This document shows positions 19,825 through 37,460 of a stretch of 64,000 bases of DNA, one piece after another (within the stretch, counting starts at the first letter, position 1; each line of letters starts with the position of its first letter). Source of the DNA: Rheinheimera sp. UJ63 (GTDB lineage Bacteria; Pseudomonadota; Gammaproteobacteria; Enterobacterales; Alteromonadaceae); NCBI RefSeq assembly GCF_021568285.1, contig NZ_JAKGTQ010000003.1, positions 124,001-188,000 on the forward strand, given 5' to 3'. The translations under genes and the position numbers were made by a program. The notes beneath the pieces were generated by a model that was not told where the DNA came from, ran no database searches, and saw nothing but the letters and a program-made list of their open reading frames with translations.

Positions 19825-19915
19825 TGGCGGAGGGGGAGAGATTCGAACTCTCGGTAGGCTATTAACCTACGCCGGTTTTCAAGACCGGTGCATTAAACCG
19901 CTCTGCCACCCCTCC
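19825..19915 (-). tRNA. tRNA-Ser (UGA), copy 1
   Basis: A 91-nt class II tRNA with encoded CCA; the anticodon loop CUUGAAA gives UGA. The acceptor stem is GGAGGGG/CCCCUCC. It differs from the neighbouring tRNA-Ser at the last acceptor pair (G-C here, A-U there). Confidence 0.97.
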
Positions 19916-20114
19916 GCGTTACAGGACGGCATATTAAAAACTTGGCTGCACTTTGTAAAGCGTTAATTTTACTTCGCTAAACTAACTGCCGACAATTTCA
20001 GCAAATGGCGGGCAAACGTCACAAACCTAACGCTATATTGTCGTCGTCGCGGTTTATTCAGGTTTGCAACAGCGTGATGTTGAACCTAACGTTAAACTGC
20101 AACGTAAGAATGCA

Positions 20115-20138
20115 AAAAGCCACCCTAGGGTGGCTTTT
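20115..20138. terminator. Perfect 24-bp palindrome between two tRNA-Ser genes
   Basis: AAAAGCCACCCT is followed immediately by its reverse complement. On the - strand it starts 9 nt beyond the 3' end of the upstream tRNA-Ser (20147-20237) and ends in a T run, so it looks like a terminator or processing hairpin. It is symmetrical and could work on either strand. Confidence 0.7.
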
Positions 20139-20146
20139 CAGAATAA

Positions 20147-20237
20147 TGGCGGAGGGAGAGAGATTCGAACTCTCGGTAGGCTATTAACCTACGCCGGTTT
20201 TCAAGACCGGTGCATTAAACCGCTCTGCCATCCCTCC
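20147..20237 (-). tRNA. tRNA-Ser (UGA), copy 2
   Basis: A 91-nt class II tRNA with encoded CCA and anticodon UGA, nearly identical to copy 1. The acceptor stem is GGAGGGA/UCCCUCC. It lies upstream of yccA in the opposite orientation, matching the serT neighbourhood of E. coli. Confidence 0.97.
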
Positions 20238-30766: not shown

Positions 30767-30976
30767 ATGGCTAAAGTAACTGGTGTAGTAAAGTGGTTCA
30801 ACGCAGATAAAGGTTTCGGTTTCATCACTCAAGACAACGGCGGCGCTGACGCTTTCGTTCACTTCCGTGCTATCCAAACTGAAGGTTACAAAACCTTAAA
30901 CGAAGGCCAACGTGTTGCCTTCGAAATCGAACAAGGCCAAAAAGGCCCACAAGCTGCTAACGTAACTGTACTGTAA
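30767..30976 (+). CDS. Cold-shock protein, CspA family
   Basis: A 69-aa single cold-shock domain, an RNA chaperone. RNP1 is KGFGFITQ (residues 15-22) and RNP2 is DAFVHF (residues 29-34), where the usual V or I is replaced by A. The C-terminal [10 protein letters not shown] is typical. AGGAG lies 6 nt before the ATG. The codon choice is markedly biased toward preferred codons, which suggests high expression. Which CspA paralogue it is cannot be told from one gene. Confidence 0.94.
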
Positions 30977-31151: not shown

Positions 31152-31380
31152 CAAGACCCTTAACGTTTTCGCCGTTGGCGAGATACTTTCTTTTGCGTCG
31201 CCAAAAGAACGTATCCAAAGAAAATGCGACCCCACTTCCGCTCGAAAGCCCAACTGCTCATGCGCTGTCCAAGGCGAAAACATCACTCGCGCTATGCTTC
31301 GTCGCCGCACTCAAACACCCGTTTTCTTAAAACCTTGGCCAACGATGATCAGTCGGCTCGCGCTAAGGGGAATAAAAGCC
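31152..31380 (+). repeat. Long intergenic hairpin repeat, copy 1
   Basis: About 229 bp starting CAAGACCCTTAACGTTTTCG and ending CTAAGGGGAATAAAA. It is nearly identical to copy 2 (33521-33751) and in the same orientation. It contains an inverted repeat, ATACTTTCTTTTG (31183-31195) facing CAAAAGAACGTAT (31202-31214), with one mismatch. Open frames inside are by-products of the repeat and have no support as genes. It lies downstream of the PAS histidine kinase gene, seen from that gene's strand. Confidence 0.9.
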
Positions 31381-31590
31381 TGAACAGTAATGGCTTTAGC
31401 AAATACCAAGTATGTTCAACTGATACTTGCGCAACTCTCTTAATCAAGCCCTAACCTATTTACGGATTAATGTGCACGATGATTTGGAAGCCACAGAAAA
31501 TTTTGAACTCTAACTGTCTTGTAAAAGCTGGGAAGTCCAGAGTTGCATTTTGAGCAGCGACTTACTGAGATACATTTAGCGGGTTTTGCT

Positions 31591-33420
31591 TTAGTTTATG
31601 GGCAGTAAAATCCAAAAGGTACTACCTTGCCCCTCCACGGATTCATAACCAATATGGCCATTCATTCCTTCAATCAGAGCCTTGCTGATGGCAAGCCCTA
31701 AACCTGAACCTTTGACGCTTCTGATGTTACCTGAATCCGCTTGTGAAAATTTTTCAAATACGTGTGGTACAAACGCTTCTGAAATGCCAATACCCTTATC
31801 TTCGACAGAAATTTTTGCATAACCGTCTGTAATCGTGGCTTGAACTTTGACAGGGTATTTAGCCAATGAAAACTTGATTGCATTGGAAAGCAAATTAATA
31901 ACCACTTGTATAAAACGATGTTCATCAACGTTGACAACAGCTTGAGCTGCAGCAGGAGAAAAATCCTTAATAAGCAGATGCTCACTATAATGAGCTACTG
32001 AATTGATGGCTTGCTCAATCAGGTCAACTAGTTGATGTGGTATAAGATTGTACGTCATTCTGCCTTCAGAGATTTTTTCTATATCGAGCAGATCATTGAC
32101 TAAAAAGGCCAGTCGTTCAGTATTCTCTTGAGCTATATTTAGTAAATAACTGACCTTAGCAGGTAGAGATTGCGTTGAGAGCAATTTGCCAGACAAAATC
32201 AACTTAATGCTGCCTAAAATTGACGTTAGCGGTGTTCGAAGTTCGTGGCTGACCGTTGAGATAAACTCGTTTTTTAAGCGTTCAACGTGTTTTCGCTCAC
32301 TAATATCAATTATTTGTGAAACAAAATATAGTACCTTGCTGTCTTCGGCTCTCACGGTTGAGACACACAGAATTGCATCGATAAAATGCCCCTGTTTATG
32401 GCGATATCGCTTCTCCATCTGATAGCTTTCTCGTTTTCCATCGATGGTCTCATATAAGAGTTCTAGGTCGGCTTGAAGATCGTCCGGATGGGTAATATCT
32501 TGAAATGTCAGTCGTAAAAATTCAGCTTCGGTATAACCCAGCATGTTAGAAAGGGCTGGGTTCACTTTTAACCATTGACCTTCAGTGGACACTAATGCCA
32601 TGCCGATACCGGAATGATAAAAGCTGTTACTAAACGTATCTTCAACAACGCGCAACTTTTCCTGATAAGAGGCAAGTTGGCTTATATCCTGTCGAGTCCC
32701 GATAAGCGAATCGTAAGAGCCATTTTTGGTTAAATCAAACAGCTTTGCTCTATCAACCACCCAAATGTACTTACCCGTCTTGCGCATTACCCGATAATGC
32801 ATCTCGTAAGAGTGTGCCGCCATCTTAGTGCAAGCTTCAAGCTGCTTTATTGCCAAATCTTTATCGGCAGGATGGATTAAGTCTAACCATTGTTTAAATG
32901 AAAAAGGGGTTAGATCTTCTAGGGTAAAACCGAGCATTTCTGCCCATCGCTTATCAATGCGCATCTCATCTTTGTGCAAGTTCCACTCCCAGACAGCAGC
33001 ATTTGCACCATCAATAATTGCCTCCATCCTGGTTCTGGCATCAACCAATTGCTGAATAGGGCTGCCTTCAGGAATAATAAAGATCACGTCACCCTGGCTA
33101 TTTTTTACTGGCCTTAAACTAAATAATATCGTGGTGCGAGCGCCGTCTTTAATTAGAACTTCTGCTTCGTAGGTAACGGCCTGTCCTGAAACCGCTTTTG
33201 CAAAGTTTTCGCGCAAGCGTTCACGTTCTAAGGTTGAGGATTGCCACCAATAACAATCCCAGAAGTACTTACCAATGACATCGTCATGTGTAATACCCGC
33301 AACTTCAACGGCAGTATTATTTGCTTCAAGCAACACGCCGTCGGTGTTTAAAAAACCAATAAAGGTAAAGGTGGAGTTAAAGATGCCGCGAAATTTGTCA
33401 GAAAGCTCAATAGGAGTCAT
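31591..33420 (-). CDS. Orphan cytoplasmic PAS-domain sensor histidine kinase
   Basis: A 609-aa kinase with no membrane segment. Three PAS domains occupy about residues 8-120, 125-245 and 255-380; the last two end in PAC-like stretches (YDSLIGTRQDISQ, VLYFVSQIIDISERK). The HisKA domain has the H-box FISTVSHELRTPLTSI near residue 395. The ATPase domain has the N-box VVINLLSNAIKFS, G1 DKGIGI, F-box FEKFSQAD and G2 GSGLGLAI, all intact. No response regulator gene is adjacent, so the partner is unknown. The gene is bounded on both sides by near-identical direct repeats, which suggests recent insertion or exchange. Confidence 0.9.
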   Translation of the reverse strand: MTPIELSDKFRGIFNSTFTFIGFLNTDGVLLEANNTAVEVAGITHDDVIGKYFWDCYWWQSSTLERERLRENFAKAVSGQAVTYEAEVLIKDGARTTILFSLRPVKNSQGDVIFIIPEGSPIQQLVDARTRMEAIIDGANAAVWEWNLHKDEMRIDKRWAEMLGFTLEDLTPFSFKQWLDLIHPADKDLAIKQLEACTKMAAHSYEMHYRVMRKTGKYIWVVDRAKLFDLTKNGSYDSLIGTRQDISQLASYQEKLRVVEDTFSNSFYHSGIGMALVSTEGQWLKVNPALSNMLGYTEAEFLRLTFQDITHPDDLQADLELLYETIDGKRESYQMEKRYRHKQGHFIDAILCVSTVRAEDSKVLYFVSQIIDISERKHVERLKNEFISTVSHELRTPLTSILGSIKLILSGKLLSTQSLPAKVSYLLNIAQENTERLAFLVNDLLDIEKISEGRMTYNLIPHQLVDLIEQAINSVAHYSEHLLIKDFSPAAAQAVVNVDEHRFIQVVINLLSNAIKFSLAKYPVKVQATITDGYAKISVEDKGIGISEAFVPHVFEKFSQADSGNIRSVKGSGLGLAISKALIEGMNGHIGYESVEGQGSTFWILLPIN

Positions 33421-33520
33421 AGTTTAAATCTTTAACTTTCTAATTAAGTTAAGAGCTTAGCTGACTGGGTTCTCCAGAGCAATGTGTTTACAACGAAAGC
33501 GTAGCTTCAGGATCAGATAC

Positions 33521-33751
33521 CAAGACCCTTAACGTTTTCGCCGTTGGCGAGATACTTTCTTTTGCGTCGCCAAAAGAAAGTATCCAAAGAAAATGCGACC
33601 CCACTTCCGCTCGAAAGCCCAACTGCTCATGCGCTGTCCAAGGCGAAAACGTAACTCGCGCGGCGCTACCGTCGCCGCACTCAAACACCCGTTTTCTTAA
33701 AACCTTGGCCAACGATGATCAGTCGGCTCGCTCTAAGGGGAATAAAAAGCC
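33521..33751 (+). repeat. Long intergenic hairpin repeat, copy 2
   Basis: About 231 bp, near-identical to copy 1. Its central inverted repeat is perfect: ATACTTTCTTTTG (33552-33564) and CAAAAGAAAGTAT (33571-33583), with a 6-nt loop. The left flank (33501-33520, GTAGCTTCAGGATCAGATAC) recurs in diverged form before copy 3. It fills the 402-bp space between the kinase and metallopeptidase genes. Confidence 0.92.
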
Positions 33752-33822
33752 AGAGCGGTATTCGCTTAGCTGAATAGCTTGTTTGTGCCAAAAGCAGAAG
33801 TTTACAAGTGTTTAATGCCACT

Positions 33823-35190
33823 TTAGTGGTTGCTATCAAAAGGTGTAATTTTTGAAAAATAATTGGACTCAATAACTTCAAGTAATGCTCTATCATTTAA
33901 TACATCACCTAAGGTTTTTATTAGAAAGTCATAATCAGTAAATTCGCTTTCAACCGTAAGTAATTTATTTATCCATCTCCACATATTCTCCTCACCAATA
34001 ACATGTTCCAATTTGATCCAATTAGTCGGGGCATATGTGTAAAAGTACAAGTTTCTATCACCATAGCCACTTGAAGATTTTATTTCGCTAATCGGTATCA
34101 GTTTGGCATTTATTAACTCTTTAAGTTTATTGTCGACGATGTTGTTAAAGACATCTTCACCGATCAATTCTTTTGTAAGTTTTAGAGATATATATTCTGA
34201 GAATGACTCTGACAACATATCACCCAGTTCAGAATTGAACTTTCTATAAGTACCAAAATAATAATGCGCTAATTCGTGTGCTATAAAAGGCTTGAACCAA
34301 TTAGATTTTTCGTCATTTATTAAATCACTTAATCCGCCTTCTGGGTGACCTACATTAACAATGCTAGGGTATGCTACAAAAAGCCAACTGTTATTTTTAG
34401 AGATTGGTGTTGTATGTATGAATACGACACTATCACCATATGGCAGATTTAGTTTTTCTTGATAAAATTTTTCAAATGATGAGATAACGTTACCAAAATC
34501 AACCATTTGCTCATTGGAAAGTCCTGTATTTAAGAAGTAGCTGCCATTTGATTTTTCTATTTCGAAATCACCTGCAAATAGCATTAATTCCACAGGATTT
34601 TCGCTAATAAACTTACCTGCTTTGCCTGAAACTGGCGAGCTACCGTTCAGGTAAATTGATTTACAATCAGTACATTTAACCTCAATGTCATATGTCACGG
34701 AATCAAACCTGACATCCTTATCAATGTCATAAAGGACTGGATACCACGATGCTTGCATCCCGTCGGATCTTAATGTTTTTCCGTTAAATGCAATATTTCC
34801 TTTCCAGTCACCATGTTGGCTTGCTTTATCCATATCTGAAATCACAGGAAATTTACCTGTATACTTAAAGCTTAGTGACTTCGGGAGAAACTTTTCTTTA
34901 CCACTATTATCAGGAAGATAGTATCCGAAGCTTTCGTATGAATATTCTTCATTGTATTTTTTCCGGAAAGCATAATTGAAGCTATCGTCTTTATCTCTAA
35001 AGTATTCAATGTTTAAACCAGAGTTAATAAAGATGTAGTAATTTTTGATTTTTGGGATGTTGCTGAGTTTTAGTTCAGCTTCAATTGTTCCCTTCTCAAT
35101 TGAAAGGATTAAAGTACCAGATAGTTTAAGGGGTTCTGCAAATGCTGATGTTGAGAATAATACAAGAATAAAAAATAATGTGTTTTTCAT
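33823..35190 (-). CDS. Secreted M1-like (gluzincin) metallopeptidase
   Basis: A 455-aa secreted protein with signal peptide MKNTLFFILVLFSTSAFA. The zinc motif is HELAHYYFG, followed 18 residues after the second His by the third ligand Glu in MLSESFSEYI. This is exactly the HExxH-x18-E spacing of M1-family gluzincins. No clear aminopeptidase GxMEN motif is seen, so it is a distant relative with unknown substrate. The start at 35190 has GGA nearby; an in-frame ATG five codons upstream (35205) is the alternative. The gene is visibly AT-rich, with codon use unlike its neighbours, and lies between copies of the hairpin repeat, so recent acquisition is likely. Confidence 0.8.
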   Translation of the reverse strand: MKNTLFFILVLFSTSAFAEPLKLSGTLILSIEKGTIEAELKLSNIPKIKNYYIFINSGLNIEYFRDKDDSFNYAFRKKYNEEYSYESFGYYLPDNSGKEKFLPKSLSFKYTGKFPVISDMDKASQHGDWKGNIAFNGKTLRSDGMQASWYPVLYDIDKDVRFDSVTYDIEVKCTDCKSIYLNGSSPVSGKAGKFISENPVELMLFAGDFEIEKSNGSYFLNTGLSNEQMVDFGNVISSFEKFYQEKLNLPYGDSVVFIHTTPISKNNSWLFVAYPSIVNVGHPEGGLSDLINDEKSNWFKPFIAHELAHYYFGTYRKFNSELGDMLSESFSEYISLKLTKELIGEDVFNNIVDNKLKELINAKLIPISEIKSSSGYGDRNLYFYTYAPTNWIKLEHVIGEENMWRWINKLLTVESEFTDYDFLIKTLGDVLNDRALLEVIESNYFSKITPFDSNH

Positions 35191-35448
35191 AAACGTCCAT
35201 TTCATGCGGGTATTTTAGTAAACTGAGGTAAGTCAAACCTGAAAATATTTGCCTAATTTTCTCATCTTGTCTCAGGCTTCCATACGCACTTTTAGCTGAT
35301 AGGCAACAAAGTGTCAATTATGGGTTTATAAAGCTCATAATCTTAAATGCGATTGCTGATAATTTTTAGTACTTACGAAAGATTGTTTATCTCTCTTAGA
35401 TGCCGGTCTGCTGAGTAAGAAATCAGTGGTAGCTTCGGGGTTAGATAA

Positions 35449-35566
35449 CAAGACCCTTAACGTTTTCGCCGAAGGCGAAAACGTTGTTTACTTATAAGTT
35501 ATTGAAGATATGCGCATAGACATTTTGGTGCGGCAGGTATTTCTGTTGATCGCTCAAAGCAGTAAT
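35449..35566. repeat. Hairpin repeat, copy 3 (end-to-end fusion remnant)
   Basis: It begins like copies 1 and 2 (CAAGACCCTTAACGTTTTCGCC), but after GAA it turns into the inverted outer end found at copy 4 (GGCGAAAACGTTGTTTA...), producing a perfect 12-bp inverted repeat (35459-35470 with 35474-35485). The stretch 35474-35566 is about three-quarters identical to 35808-35900. The core of the element is missing. Confidence 0.75.
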
Positions 35567-35639
35567 AATCTTAAAACCGAAATACGCCTTAACCTGATAT
35601 GCTTTTAAATCCCATTACGTTGCAAGCCGTGCAAGTTTG

Positions 35640-35900
35640 CATGTCCAAGGTTTTAAGACGAGGGGTGTTTGAGTGAGGTTCGGTAGCGCCGAGCGAGTTA
35701 CCTCGTCGCCTTGGGCGGGCAAAATTGCATGGGCTTTCGCCGCAACGTGGGTCGAATTTTCTTTGGTGACTTTCTTTTGGCGAAACAAAAGAAAGTTACT
35801 CGCCAACGGCGAAAAAGTTGTTTATTTAATACGTTATTACGGACATGCGCATAGACGTTTTGGCGCAGCAGGAATTTCTGTTCTTCGCTCTACGCAGCAT
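35640..35900 (-). repeat. Hairpin repeat, copy 4 (diverged, inverted)
   Basis: Read on the - strand it follows copies 1 and 2 through the core (CGCCGTTGGCGAG, ACTTTCTTTTG hairpin, GCGAAAGCCCA, CCAAGGCGA, CACTCAAACACCC, CTTAAAACCTTGG) with many substitutions. The hairpin ACTTTCTTTTG/CAAAAGAAAGT (35769-35779 with 35786-35796) is kept. The outer end 35808-35900 is a direct repeat of part of copy 3. No gene was recognised in 35206-36008 apart from these repeats and a terminator. Confidence 0.82.
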
Positions 35901-36008: not shown

Positions 36009-37460
36009 TTATTTCGCGATAGGCAAGGTTGGGTATTTAATACCCGCCATTTCATTCATTACCCGAGTAACCTGCACACTGTAACCAAACTCGTTATCGT
36101 ACCATACGTATAACACACAGCGATCACCGTCTACGATTGTCGCTTGCGAGTCCACTACCCCTGCGTAGCGCGAGCCTACTAAGTCAGAAGACACGATTTC
36201 GGTTGAACTGGTAAAATCGATTTGATCTTGCAGTTCAGAGAACAGTGACGTGCGCTGTAAGAAATCGTTTAGCTCATCTTTGTTGGTTTCACGATTCAAG
36301 TTTAACGATAATATCGCCATTGACACGTTAGGCGTTGGCACACGGATCGCATTACCGGTTAACTTACCTTTTAACTCAGGCAAGGCTTTAGCCACCGCAC
36401 TGGCGGCCCCCGTTGAAGTTAACACCATATTTAACGGTGCAGCACGGCCACGGCGATCGGCTTTGTGGAAGTTATCAATCAAGTTTTGATCGTTGGTGTA
36501 AGAATGCACGGTTTCTACGTGACCATTGCGAATACCGTACTCATCTTGCAGTGCTTTTAATACCGGCGTTATGGCGTTAGTGGTACAACTGGCTGCAGAA
36601 ACAATTTTATGCTCTGGCGCGATCATATGCTGGTTAACACCATATACCACGTTCGGTACTTCACCTTTAGCCGGTGCGGTAATTAATACGCGAGCCGCAC
36701 CTTTGCTTTGCAAGTGAATGGATAATTCTTTATCGTCTTTGAATATACCGGTGTTATCGACGATCAGCGCGTTATCAATACCGTATTGGGTATAATCAAC
36801 TTGCTCTGGAGAGTTGGCGTAAATCACTTTGATAAAAGTACCGTTAGCTTTAATGCCTTGGTTCTCTTCATCTACAGTAATGCTGCCATTGAAAGGGCCA
36901 TGAATAGAATCGCGACGTAACAAGCTGGCGCGTTTTTCTAAGTCACCTTTTTTACCACCACGTACCACTATCGCTTTTAAACGTAATTTACTGCTAGGGC
37001 CTGAACGCTCTAACATTAAGCGGGCAACTAAGCGGCCAATTCGACCGAAACCATAGAGCACAACATCGACGGGTGTCACTTGATCTTCGTGATCAAGAAT
37101 ATCCGCTAGCTCTTGAGCTAAATATTGCTCAAGCGTTAGGCCTGTTGCATTGTCTTTGTATAAATAGGCGTAAGCCAATTTACCAATATCTACCCGACCG
37201 GGTGCCAAATTCATTTTACTGATGGCTTCTAATAACGGAAAACTCTCACGAAGGCGTAATTTTTGGCCTTCGAACCGCTCTACTGTTTTATGCGCTTTAA
37301 TAATATCAATGGTGGTAGCATTAACCAAAGGCCGTCCATAGATGACCACCTCGATGCCTTTATTACGATAAAGCCGACCAATGATAGGTAACATGTTTTC
37401 GGCGTATTCCTGGCGTTCCTGCCAGCTTTTTTGATACTGTTCTGCGTGTGATAGGGTCAT
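36009..37460 (-). CDS. Long glyceraldehyde-3-phosphate dehydrogenase-like protein
   Basis: A 483-aa member of the GAPDH family, about 150 residues longer than GapA because of an N-terminal extension (residues 1-125). The NAD-binding fold begins at DVVLYGFGRIGRLVARLML. The catalytic Cys is in VSAASCTTNAITPVL near residue 288, with the His in HVETVHSYTNDQNLID. The C-terminal WYDNEFGYSVQVTRVM is conserved. Such long forms accompany a normal GapA in Vibrio and Shewanella relatives. Whether it is glycolytic, gluconeogenic or NADP-linked cannot be told from this sequence. An AAGG ribosome-binding site precedes the ATG. Confidence 0.9.
   Translation of the reverse strand: MTLSHAEQYQKSWQERQEYAENMLPIIGRLYRNKGIEVVIYGRPLVNATTIDIIKAHKTVERFEGQKLRLRESFPLLEAISKMNLAPGRVDIGKLAYAYLYKDNATGLTLEQYLAQELADILDHEDQVTPVDVVLYGFGRIGRLVARLMLERSGPSSKLRLKAIVVRGGKKGDLEKRASLLRRDSIHGPFNGSITVDEENQGIKANGTFIKVIYANSPEQVDYTQYGIDNALIVDNTGIFKDDKELSIHLQSKGAARVLITAPAKGEVPNVVYGVNQHMIAPEHKIVSAASCTTNAITPVLKALQDEYGIRNGHVETVHSYTNDQNLIDNFHKADRRGRAAPLNMVLTSTGAASAVAKALPELKGKLTGNAIRVPTPNVSMAILSLNLNRETNKDELNDFLQRTSLFSELQDQIDFTSSTEIVSSDLVGSRYAGVVDSQATIVDGDRCVLYVWYDNEFGYSVQVTRVMNEMAGIKYPTLPIAK

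Follow-up and report, generated by a model that had tools for sequence, protein, structure and literature searches.

Between a csp gene (30767..30976, + strand) and the glyceraldehyde-3-phosphate dehydrogenase gene gap (36009..37460, - strand), a 64,000-nucleotide stretch of the Rheinheimera sp. UJ63 genome (the whole stretch is hereafter called the window) carries four copies of a dispersed repeat and two further genes. The convergent csp and gap genes flank the repeats, a kinase gene with PAS, HisKA and HATPase domains (31591..33420, - strand) and a peptidase-like gene (33823..35205, - strand) named from a motif read by eye. The repeat contains a covarying H-type pseudoknot followed by a long covarying stem, and it is probably a dispersed, non-coding, non-autonomous mobile element, about 200 bases long, under selection for its fold and moved by a trans-acting mobiliser.

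Copy 2 (33521..33751, + strand), which served as the reference, and copy 1 (31152..31377, + strand) are both of type A and form direct repeats of 96% identity in an alignment of 227 columns, with the kinase gene between them. The four loop pairs described below are all present in both copies, and the H2 hairpin of copy 1 has one mismatch. Copy 4, of type B, lies on the - strand and with its outer flank spans 35642..35897, the end being approximate; its core (35642-35819), read in inverted orientation, shares 81% identity with copy 2, and three of its four loop pairs form. Copy 3 (35449..35566, no strand assigned) is a collapsed remnant in which a type A left end runs into the left flank of a type B copy in inverted orientation. 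Positions 35429-35478 share 88% identity with the left end of copy 2, and positions 35466-35562 match the outer left flank of copy 4, inverted, at 82%. The original prediction, made from the letters of this DNA, had described copies 1 and 2 as near-identical direct repeats, copy 4 as a diverged inverted relative and copy 3 as a fused remnant, and all three descriptions were borne out by the alignments. The similarity among the four copies is far beyond chance, because the unit recurs genome-wide. Copy 2 is preceded by a border motif of the AGCTTCGGGGTCAGATACCAAGA type (33503..33525, + strand), which is recurrent in a pattern listing of 15 fetched regions and the window and has a second instance at 35431-35453. 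A second recurrent module (GGCTGGAGACGTCTTTTTCAGGGATGAAAAAG...) immediately precedes many type A copies and is also found without them (L031, L032, L033, L034, L037, L038, L039, L041, L042).

The fold is best followed in copy 2. Hairpin H2 (33555..33581, + strand), as read from the sequence, consists of CTTTCTTTTG, a 6-base loop and CAAAAGAAAGT. The loop of this A/T-rich hairpin pairs with bases just past the linker CCAAAGAAAA (33594..33598, + strand), where 33595-33598 provide the downstream strand of a helix termed PK2, defined by covariation in 73 aligned copies and in a set of 102. A long stem, P3, with the inner helices P4 and P5 (CCCC ... GGGG), occupies 33599..33740 (+ strand), based on folds of copy 2 and covariation in relatives, its ends being placed by eye. 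The plan of the element would be a hairpin H1 upstream, then H2 with the H-type pseudoknot behind the linker, then P3 with P4 and P5.

The relatives came from a scan of other bacteria that constrained only the H2 stem and the linker and left the loop, its partner bases, H1 and the downstream part free; part of the H2 stem is invariant because the scan itself fixed it. The 126 pattern matches (124 in named contigs and 2 in viral contigs, according to the scripts) gave 102 distinct copies with full context. Alignment A2 contains 73 copies, namely 70 of the 102, distinct over a shorter core, and three window copies. The ends of P3 were located in 68 of the 102, and 42 of these were aligned as A1. 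The P4 count used 47 distinct arm pairs in which both flanking motifs were present; 41 of these arm pairs belong to copies among the 102.

All four loop bases pair with their partners in 94 of the 102 distinct copies, through 12 different complementary combinations. With the partners permuted in 2,000 trials, such copies numbered 43 on average and never more than 57, and sliding the partner by -1 or by +1 to +3 left 0-1 copies paired. The PK2 helix is 96.2% paired in the 73-copy alignment, with two-sided changes at all four pairs and not one one-sided change. When the whole structure was compared with 500 shuffles, its covariation score was reached in none, its number of two-sided pairs in 2 and its number of pair types in 44. 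Among 45 host hairpins, 32 pair fully at the PK2 positions and 6 pair at three of them. In the mixed alignment of 42 copies, RNAalifold predicted 11 pairs in P3, every one with two-sided changes in some sequence. A P4 of at least six contiguous pairs is present in 26 of the 47 arm pairs, as compared with a permuted maximum of 9; arm lengths vary much among copies. Around H1, the stem together with a pairing of its loop to downstream bases reaches at least nine pairs in 66 of 102 copies, the average over 20 mononucleotide shuffles being 0.55. Taken together, the results for PK2 and P3 show a covarying pseudoknot of the H-type with a long covarying stem behind it. Within a 6-kb part of the window the repeats had no Rfam 15 match at E<=1; 12 host loci gave only tRNA and SRP (signal recognition particle) RNA at gathering score, and nine loci of named relatives gave nothing at E<=0.5.

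The copy count across host and related genomes that had been suggested with the original prediction was run with the diagnostic hairpin as a pattern, allowing up to 3 mismatches. The hairpin occurs at 42 places in the host genome (25 forward, 17 reverse), at two in congener G023, at one in G024 and at none in the other 28 congeners. A search of the host genome with copy 2 gave 74 matches, many of which are hairpin arms matching themselves. The 15 fetched regions together with the window contain 55 merged pieces of at least 60 bases. There are two subtypes, A (31 long copies) and B (13), which have a common plan and differ in their 3' ends. Across these regions the copies occur as single units, as same-direction arrays and as inverted pairs, and many of the tandem or inverted groups have no gene between the copies. 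On account of the tandem spacing tRNA-linked repeats were considered, and they were rejected, as tRNA genes lie in only 3 of the 15 regions. One copy in G023 and one in G024 share a common 352-base unit at 95% identity within about 3.2 kb of otherwise unmatched DNA; therefore one unit lies in unrelated surroundings in two species.

The range outside the genus is wide and patchy. Of 394 genomes sampled from the order, 11 have the exact core pattern, and of 299 sampled from the phylum, 3 have a one-mismatch pattern; the host is counted in both figures. The hairpin core was found in at least 118 stretches of named genomes, many of them from Beta- and Gammaproteobacteria. Among the matches listed are the genera Thiobacillus, Polaromonas, Acidovorax, Methylomonas, Methylobacter, Azonexus, Vogesella, Rheinheimera and Psychromonas, with others; Polaromonas sp. 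JS666 carries the family (L122, L157, L198). Two viral contigs contain the hairpin pattern, and copy 2 had no match in a plasmid collection. In a related genus, a 1.5-kb query from G082 that bears the element matched 22 of 22 genomes, with a listed match inside the element part for 21 of them and no place listed for G701. The original prediction had offered a non-autonomous mobile element as one reading of the repeats, and the patchy range, the burst in one species and the 352-base unit in unmatched flanks speak in its favor.

The copies are intergenic. For 81 of the 102 copies genes were found on both sides, and the neighbors are co-directional on the + strand in 31 cases, convergent in 21, co-directional on the - strand in 20 and divergent in 9. 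Two type B copies adjoin a gene pair that encodes a ribonuclease (PF00545) and a barstar (PF01337) (L044:6422-7206; G000:C1:902000-914000). Other genes seen near copies are DUF4160 and DUF2442 genes (L032:5062-5643), ParE toxin and Phd/YefM antitoxin genes (L035:6777-7354), DUF4258 and helix-turn-helix (HTH) genes (L041:4999-5797), and a Phd/YefM antitoxin gene with a partner gene (L043:7220-7828).

The orientation of neighboring copies bears on how the unit is built. In a count that omitted loci L001-L030, L046-L120 and L239-L260 against double-counting of genomes, inverted neighbors within 800 bases were tail-to-tail (+-) in 18 cases, 2 of them in the host, and (-+) in none. Same-direction neighbors within the same distance numbered 9 and 7 for the two directions and were confined to the host. 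Wider (+-) intervals enclose a gene in two cases, a DUF5677 gene within 1.4 kb in Methylomonas methanica (L185) and the peptidase-like gene within 2.2 kb in the window. At an orthologous site in the related genus, G082 has a tail-to-tail pair within inverted flanks and G704 matches in the same order; G698 has the fused flanks alone, which form a palindrome that is nearly perfect, and neither pair nor palindrome is present in G696, G359 or G706. Copy 3 of the window is a fusion of the same kind as the G698 palindrome. The simplest reading is that the pair was lost through slippage between short repeats at H1, and a gain is possible.

These pairs are an argument for a classical miniature inverted-repeat transposable element (MITE), in which the tail-to-tail pair would be the mobile DNA unit, the copies its long terminal inverted repeats, and single copies derivatives, with the transposase encoded elsewhere. 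The complete bias of close pairs toward (+-), the two gene-enclosing wider pairs and the collapsed pair in G698 all fit, as does the inverted similarity of the flanks, which beyond H1 exceeds the shuffle maximum in 8 of the 18 pairs, in some of them barely. On terminal inverted repeats the observations are neutral: single copies show no clear ones, and the two halves of a tail-to-tail pair are inverted by construction. Against the MITE reading, many copies are single or stand in same-direction arrays. A transposase gene with ends of this kind was not seen, a family-wide search for a partner not having been made, nor was a target-site duplication identified. A covarying loop pseudoknot, moreover, is nothing that a DNA inverted repeat needs. 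We regard a classical MITE as possible but doubtful.

A structured RNA or mRNA 3' element that serves the host, duplicated by recombination and not selfish, would account for the strong structural constraint and for the small number of copies between divergent genes (9 of 81). It is hard to reconcile with a family that is absent from 28 of 30 congeners yet has 42 copies in one genome, with the 352-base unit in unmatched flanks of two species, and with the wide but patchy range. We consider this improbable.

The two genes at the csp-gap site lead to the next alternative. About 12.5 kb beside gap was fetched from 30 congeners, gap being present in 31 of 31 genomes of the genus. The order ald-csp-gap is kept in 13 of the 30, and in the other 17 csp does not adjoin gap. 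In those 13 csp and gap adjoin without the kinase gene, the peptidase-like gene or repeats, the distance between them being 78-388 bases in 12 and 1,940 bases in G017. At the G017 site (L054) lies an insert of 1.9 kb that, judged by eye, looks like a group II intron carrying a reverse transcriptase. Neither the kinase and peptidase-like genes (tblastn, E<=1e-8) nor the repeat (blastn, E<=1e-3) was found in any of the 30 congener gap stretches. Genome-wide, the kinase had no match at E<=1e-120 in the 30 congeners and the peptidase-like gene none at E<=1e-20 in 29 of them; G004 has a distant relative of the latter (29%). A sample of 196 genomes of the family, the host excluded, contains 3 with relatives at 57-61%. 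From these congener and family searches, both genes are accessory and the peptidase-like gene is patchy, as the original prediction held in calling the site an accessory island. Its gene names fared unequally. The kinase is confirmed by its domains, and the label "peptidase" comes solely from a HELAH-like motif seen by eye in the translation, the gene having no Pfam or NCBIfam match.

It had also been proposed that one repeat accompanies each gene in a cassette-like layout. In such a system the repeat would be a recombination site resembling attC, and genes would be exchanged at the csp-gap site. The kinase gene does lie between direct copies 1 and 2, both genes are missing from congeners, small toxin-antitoxin-like or barnase-barstar genes adjoin copies at several loci, and the host encodes a chromosomal integron integrase (G000:C11:604176-605123; TIGR02249, 470.9 bits). 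But the integron region (C11:590-622 kb) holds no copy of the repeat, even with up to 6 mismatches allowed, and for this reason the attC reading is disfavored. The repeats of the array are unlike ours by eye; a strict R-box script found no attC even in the array, so that this was no fair test of resemblance. The unit is scattered genome-wide as singles, gene-free arrays and pairs without a gene between them, and none of the four relatives of the peptidase-like gene (those of the three family genomes and G004) has a repeat within its 1.5-kb flanks. The cassette idea does not hold in general, and we rate a gene-cassette system as very unlikely. The integron array itself (G000:C11:604170-616000; L288, L289) shows by eye repeated attC-like sequences, a Phd/YefM-type toxin-antitoxin cassette and an IS110-like transposase. 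Elsewhere in the window, two tRNA-Ser (TGA) genes lie about 230 bases apart (19825-20237).

That the repeats encode small proteins is highly improbable, since the two open frames crossing them (85 and 118 codons) have no Pfam match above cut-off, the copies differ by single-base gaps and the helices covary.

A mobile element selected for its fold and moved in trans is in our view the best explanation; a number of observations weigh against it. In seven of the 45 host hairpins no more than two of the four PK2 pairs form, and kinship among the copies inflates the permutation results. Around H1, 36 of 102 copies have fewer than nine pairs and 30 fewer than eight; the connector of 0-3 bases is too short for both helices to form simultaneously, so two alternative hairpins are as likely there as a true pseudoknot. 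The consensus folding energy of the mixed P3 alignment is almost zero (-0.14); this value and the small number of predicted pairs result from the mixing of two subtypes. Folding of single copies gave a mean z of -4.0 (range -17.4 to 1.2; 98 of 102 copies) in a lenient test that picked the best end for each copy, and 21 of the 47 arm pairs lack a contiguous P4 of six. The ends of the element are not crisp, and no target-site duplication has been identified, the empty sites of G696, G359 and G706 being too diverged to fix the junction. The collapsed site may reflect a loss in G698 or a gain elsewhere. Finally, the two Y1 transposase genes (PF01797) of the host have no copy within their 1.5-kb flanks; Y1 was the one mobiliser family searched. 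With no repeat beside either gene, mobilization as repetitive extragenic palindromic (REP) sequences by REP-associated tyrosine transposases (RAYTs) was rejected.

On balance we favor the following account of a fold-selected element. It would spread by a mobiliser acting in trans, the folded single strand being probably the recognised form, and would have multiplied to about 42 copies in the host species. The strand is most likely RNA, because the pseudoknot has an A-rich third loop; an A-rich linker in that place of an H-type pseudoknot speaks for RNA. The kinase and peptidase-like genes between csp and gap would have been gained by the host lineage or lost by others. Copies 1 and 2 offer 226 bases of near-identical direct homology, through which the kinase gene could be deleted or exchanged; gene exchange by recombination between repeats is possible. 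A more speculative proposal, to which we give rather little credence, is an as yet unnamed superfamily of RNA-structured mobile elements in Beta- and Gammaproteobacteria. Its members would combine a pseudoknotted or switching 5' domain with a long covarying stem, would move with these parts recognised in RNA form, a trans-acting reverse transcriptase being one conceivable partner, and could carry host genes in tail-to-tail pairs.

How does this family compare with known repeats? YPAL, ERIC and bcr1 are dispersed and non-coding too; they fold, measure roughly 100-200 bases and belong to other hosts. To our knowledge, neither a pseudoknot nor a tail-to-tail rule has been described for them. Membership among the REPs or REPINs was rejected, since our unit is about 200 bases long and has no constant unpaired GTAG or CGTC tag and no Y1 transposase flanked by it. 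By eye, GTAG occurs in some aligned copies only, within the paired 3' foot of H2, and CGTC is one of several loop sequences. REPs measure 20-40 bases, carry a GTAG or CGTC tag and are associated with RAYT transposases (PMC3733652). Like our repeats they are intergenic and palindromic, often have neighbors in opposite orientation and lie mostly between co-directional or convergent genes (PMC3733652), but a unit of about 200 bases with a pseudoknot and no Y1 transposase beside its copies differs from them. The R0-R200 repeats of Pseudomonas fluorescens resemble ours in strain-specific bursts of intergenic hairpin repeats and in a tail-repeat-tail preference (PMC2718517); compared by description only, they differ in that the covered text of that paper contains no pseudoknot and no cross-genus covariation.

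The Betaproteobacterial repeat element (BRE; Hot et al. 2011, PMC3110155) is a dispersed and mostly intergenic unit of about 90 bases, with tandem clusters and partial copies, and the same paper names ERIC and bcr1. Its 29 copies in Polaromonas sp. JS666 (PMC3110155) place it in a strain that also carries our family, and both are dispersed intergenic repeats in Betaproteobacteria. In Bordetella, however, BRE is 75-91 bases long with 63.7-78.9% G+C (PMC3110155); by description, the one level at which the two were compared, it is shorter and G+C-rich, a poor fit with the A/T-rich H2. The covered portion of PMC3110155 describes no fold for BRE and places it in Betaproteobacteria only. A MITE in Polaromonas sp. 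JS666 (Mattes et al. 2008, as cited in PMC10969869) shares with our family the strain and the character of a non-autonomous repeat. Among the papers listed on palindromic, stem-loop, foldback and pseudoknot repeats and on repeats of Rheinheimera or Polaromonas we recognised no published family as this one, BRE and the JS666 MITE being judged by description only, and we do not claim that the family is absent from print.

Short dispersed bacterial repeats are often regarded as inert palindromes. A pseudoknot and a long stem that are kept by compensatory change across many genera point to a function of the folded strand. As an element that moves in RNA form, it would be unusual among the mobile elements of bacteria; if it serves its hosts, it would be a widespread RNA that has gone unnoticed. 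Given the tail-to-tail rule and the collapsed palindromes, the way in which the element arises and decays can be tested by comparing strains.

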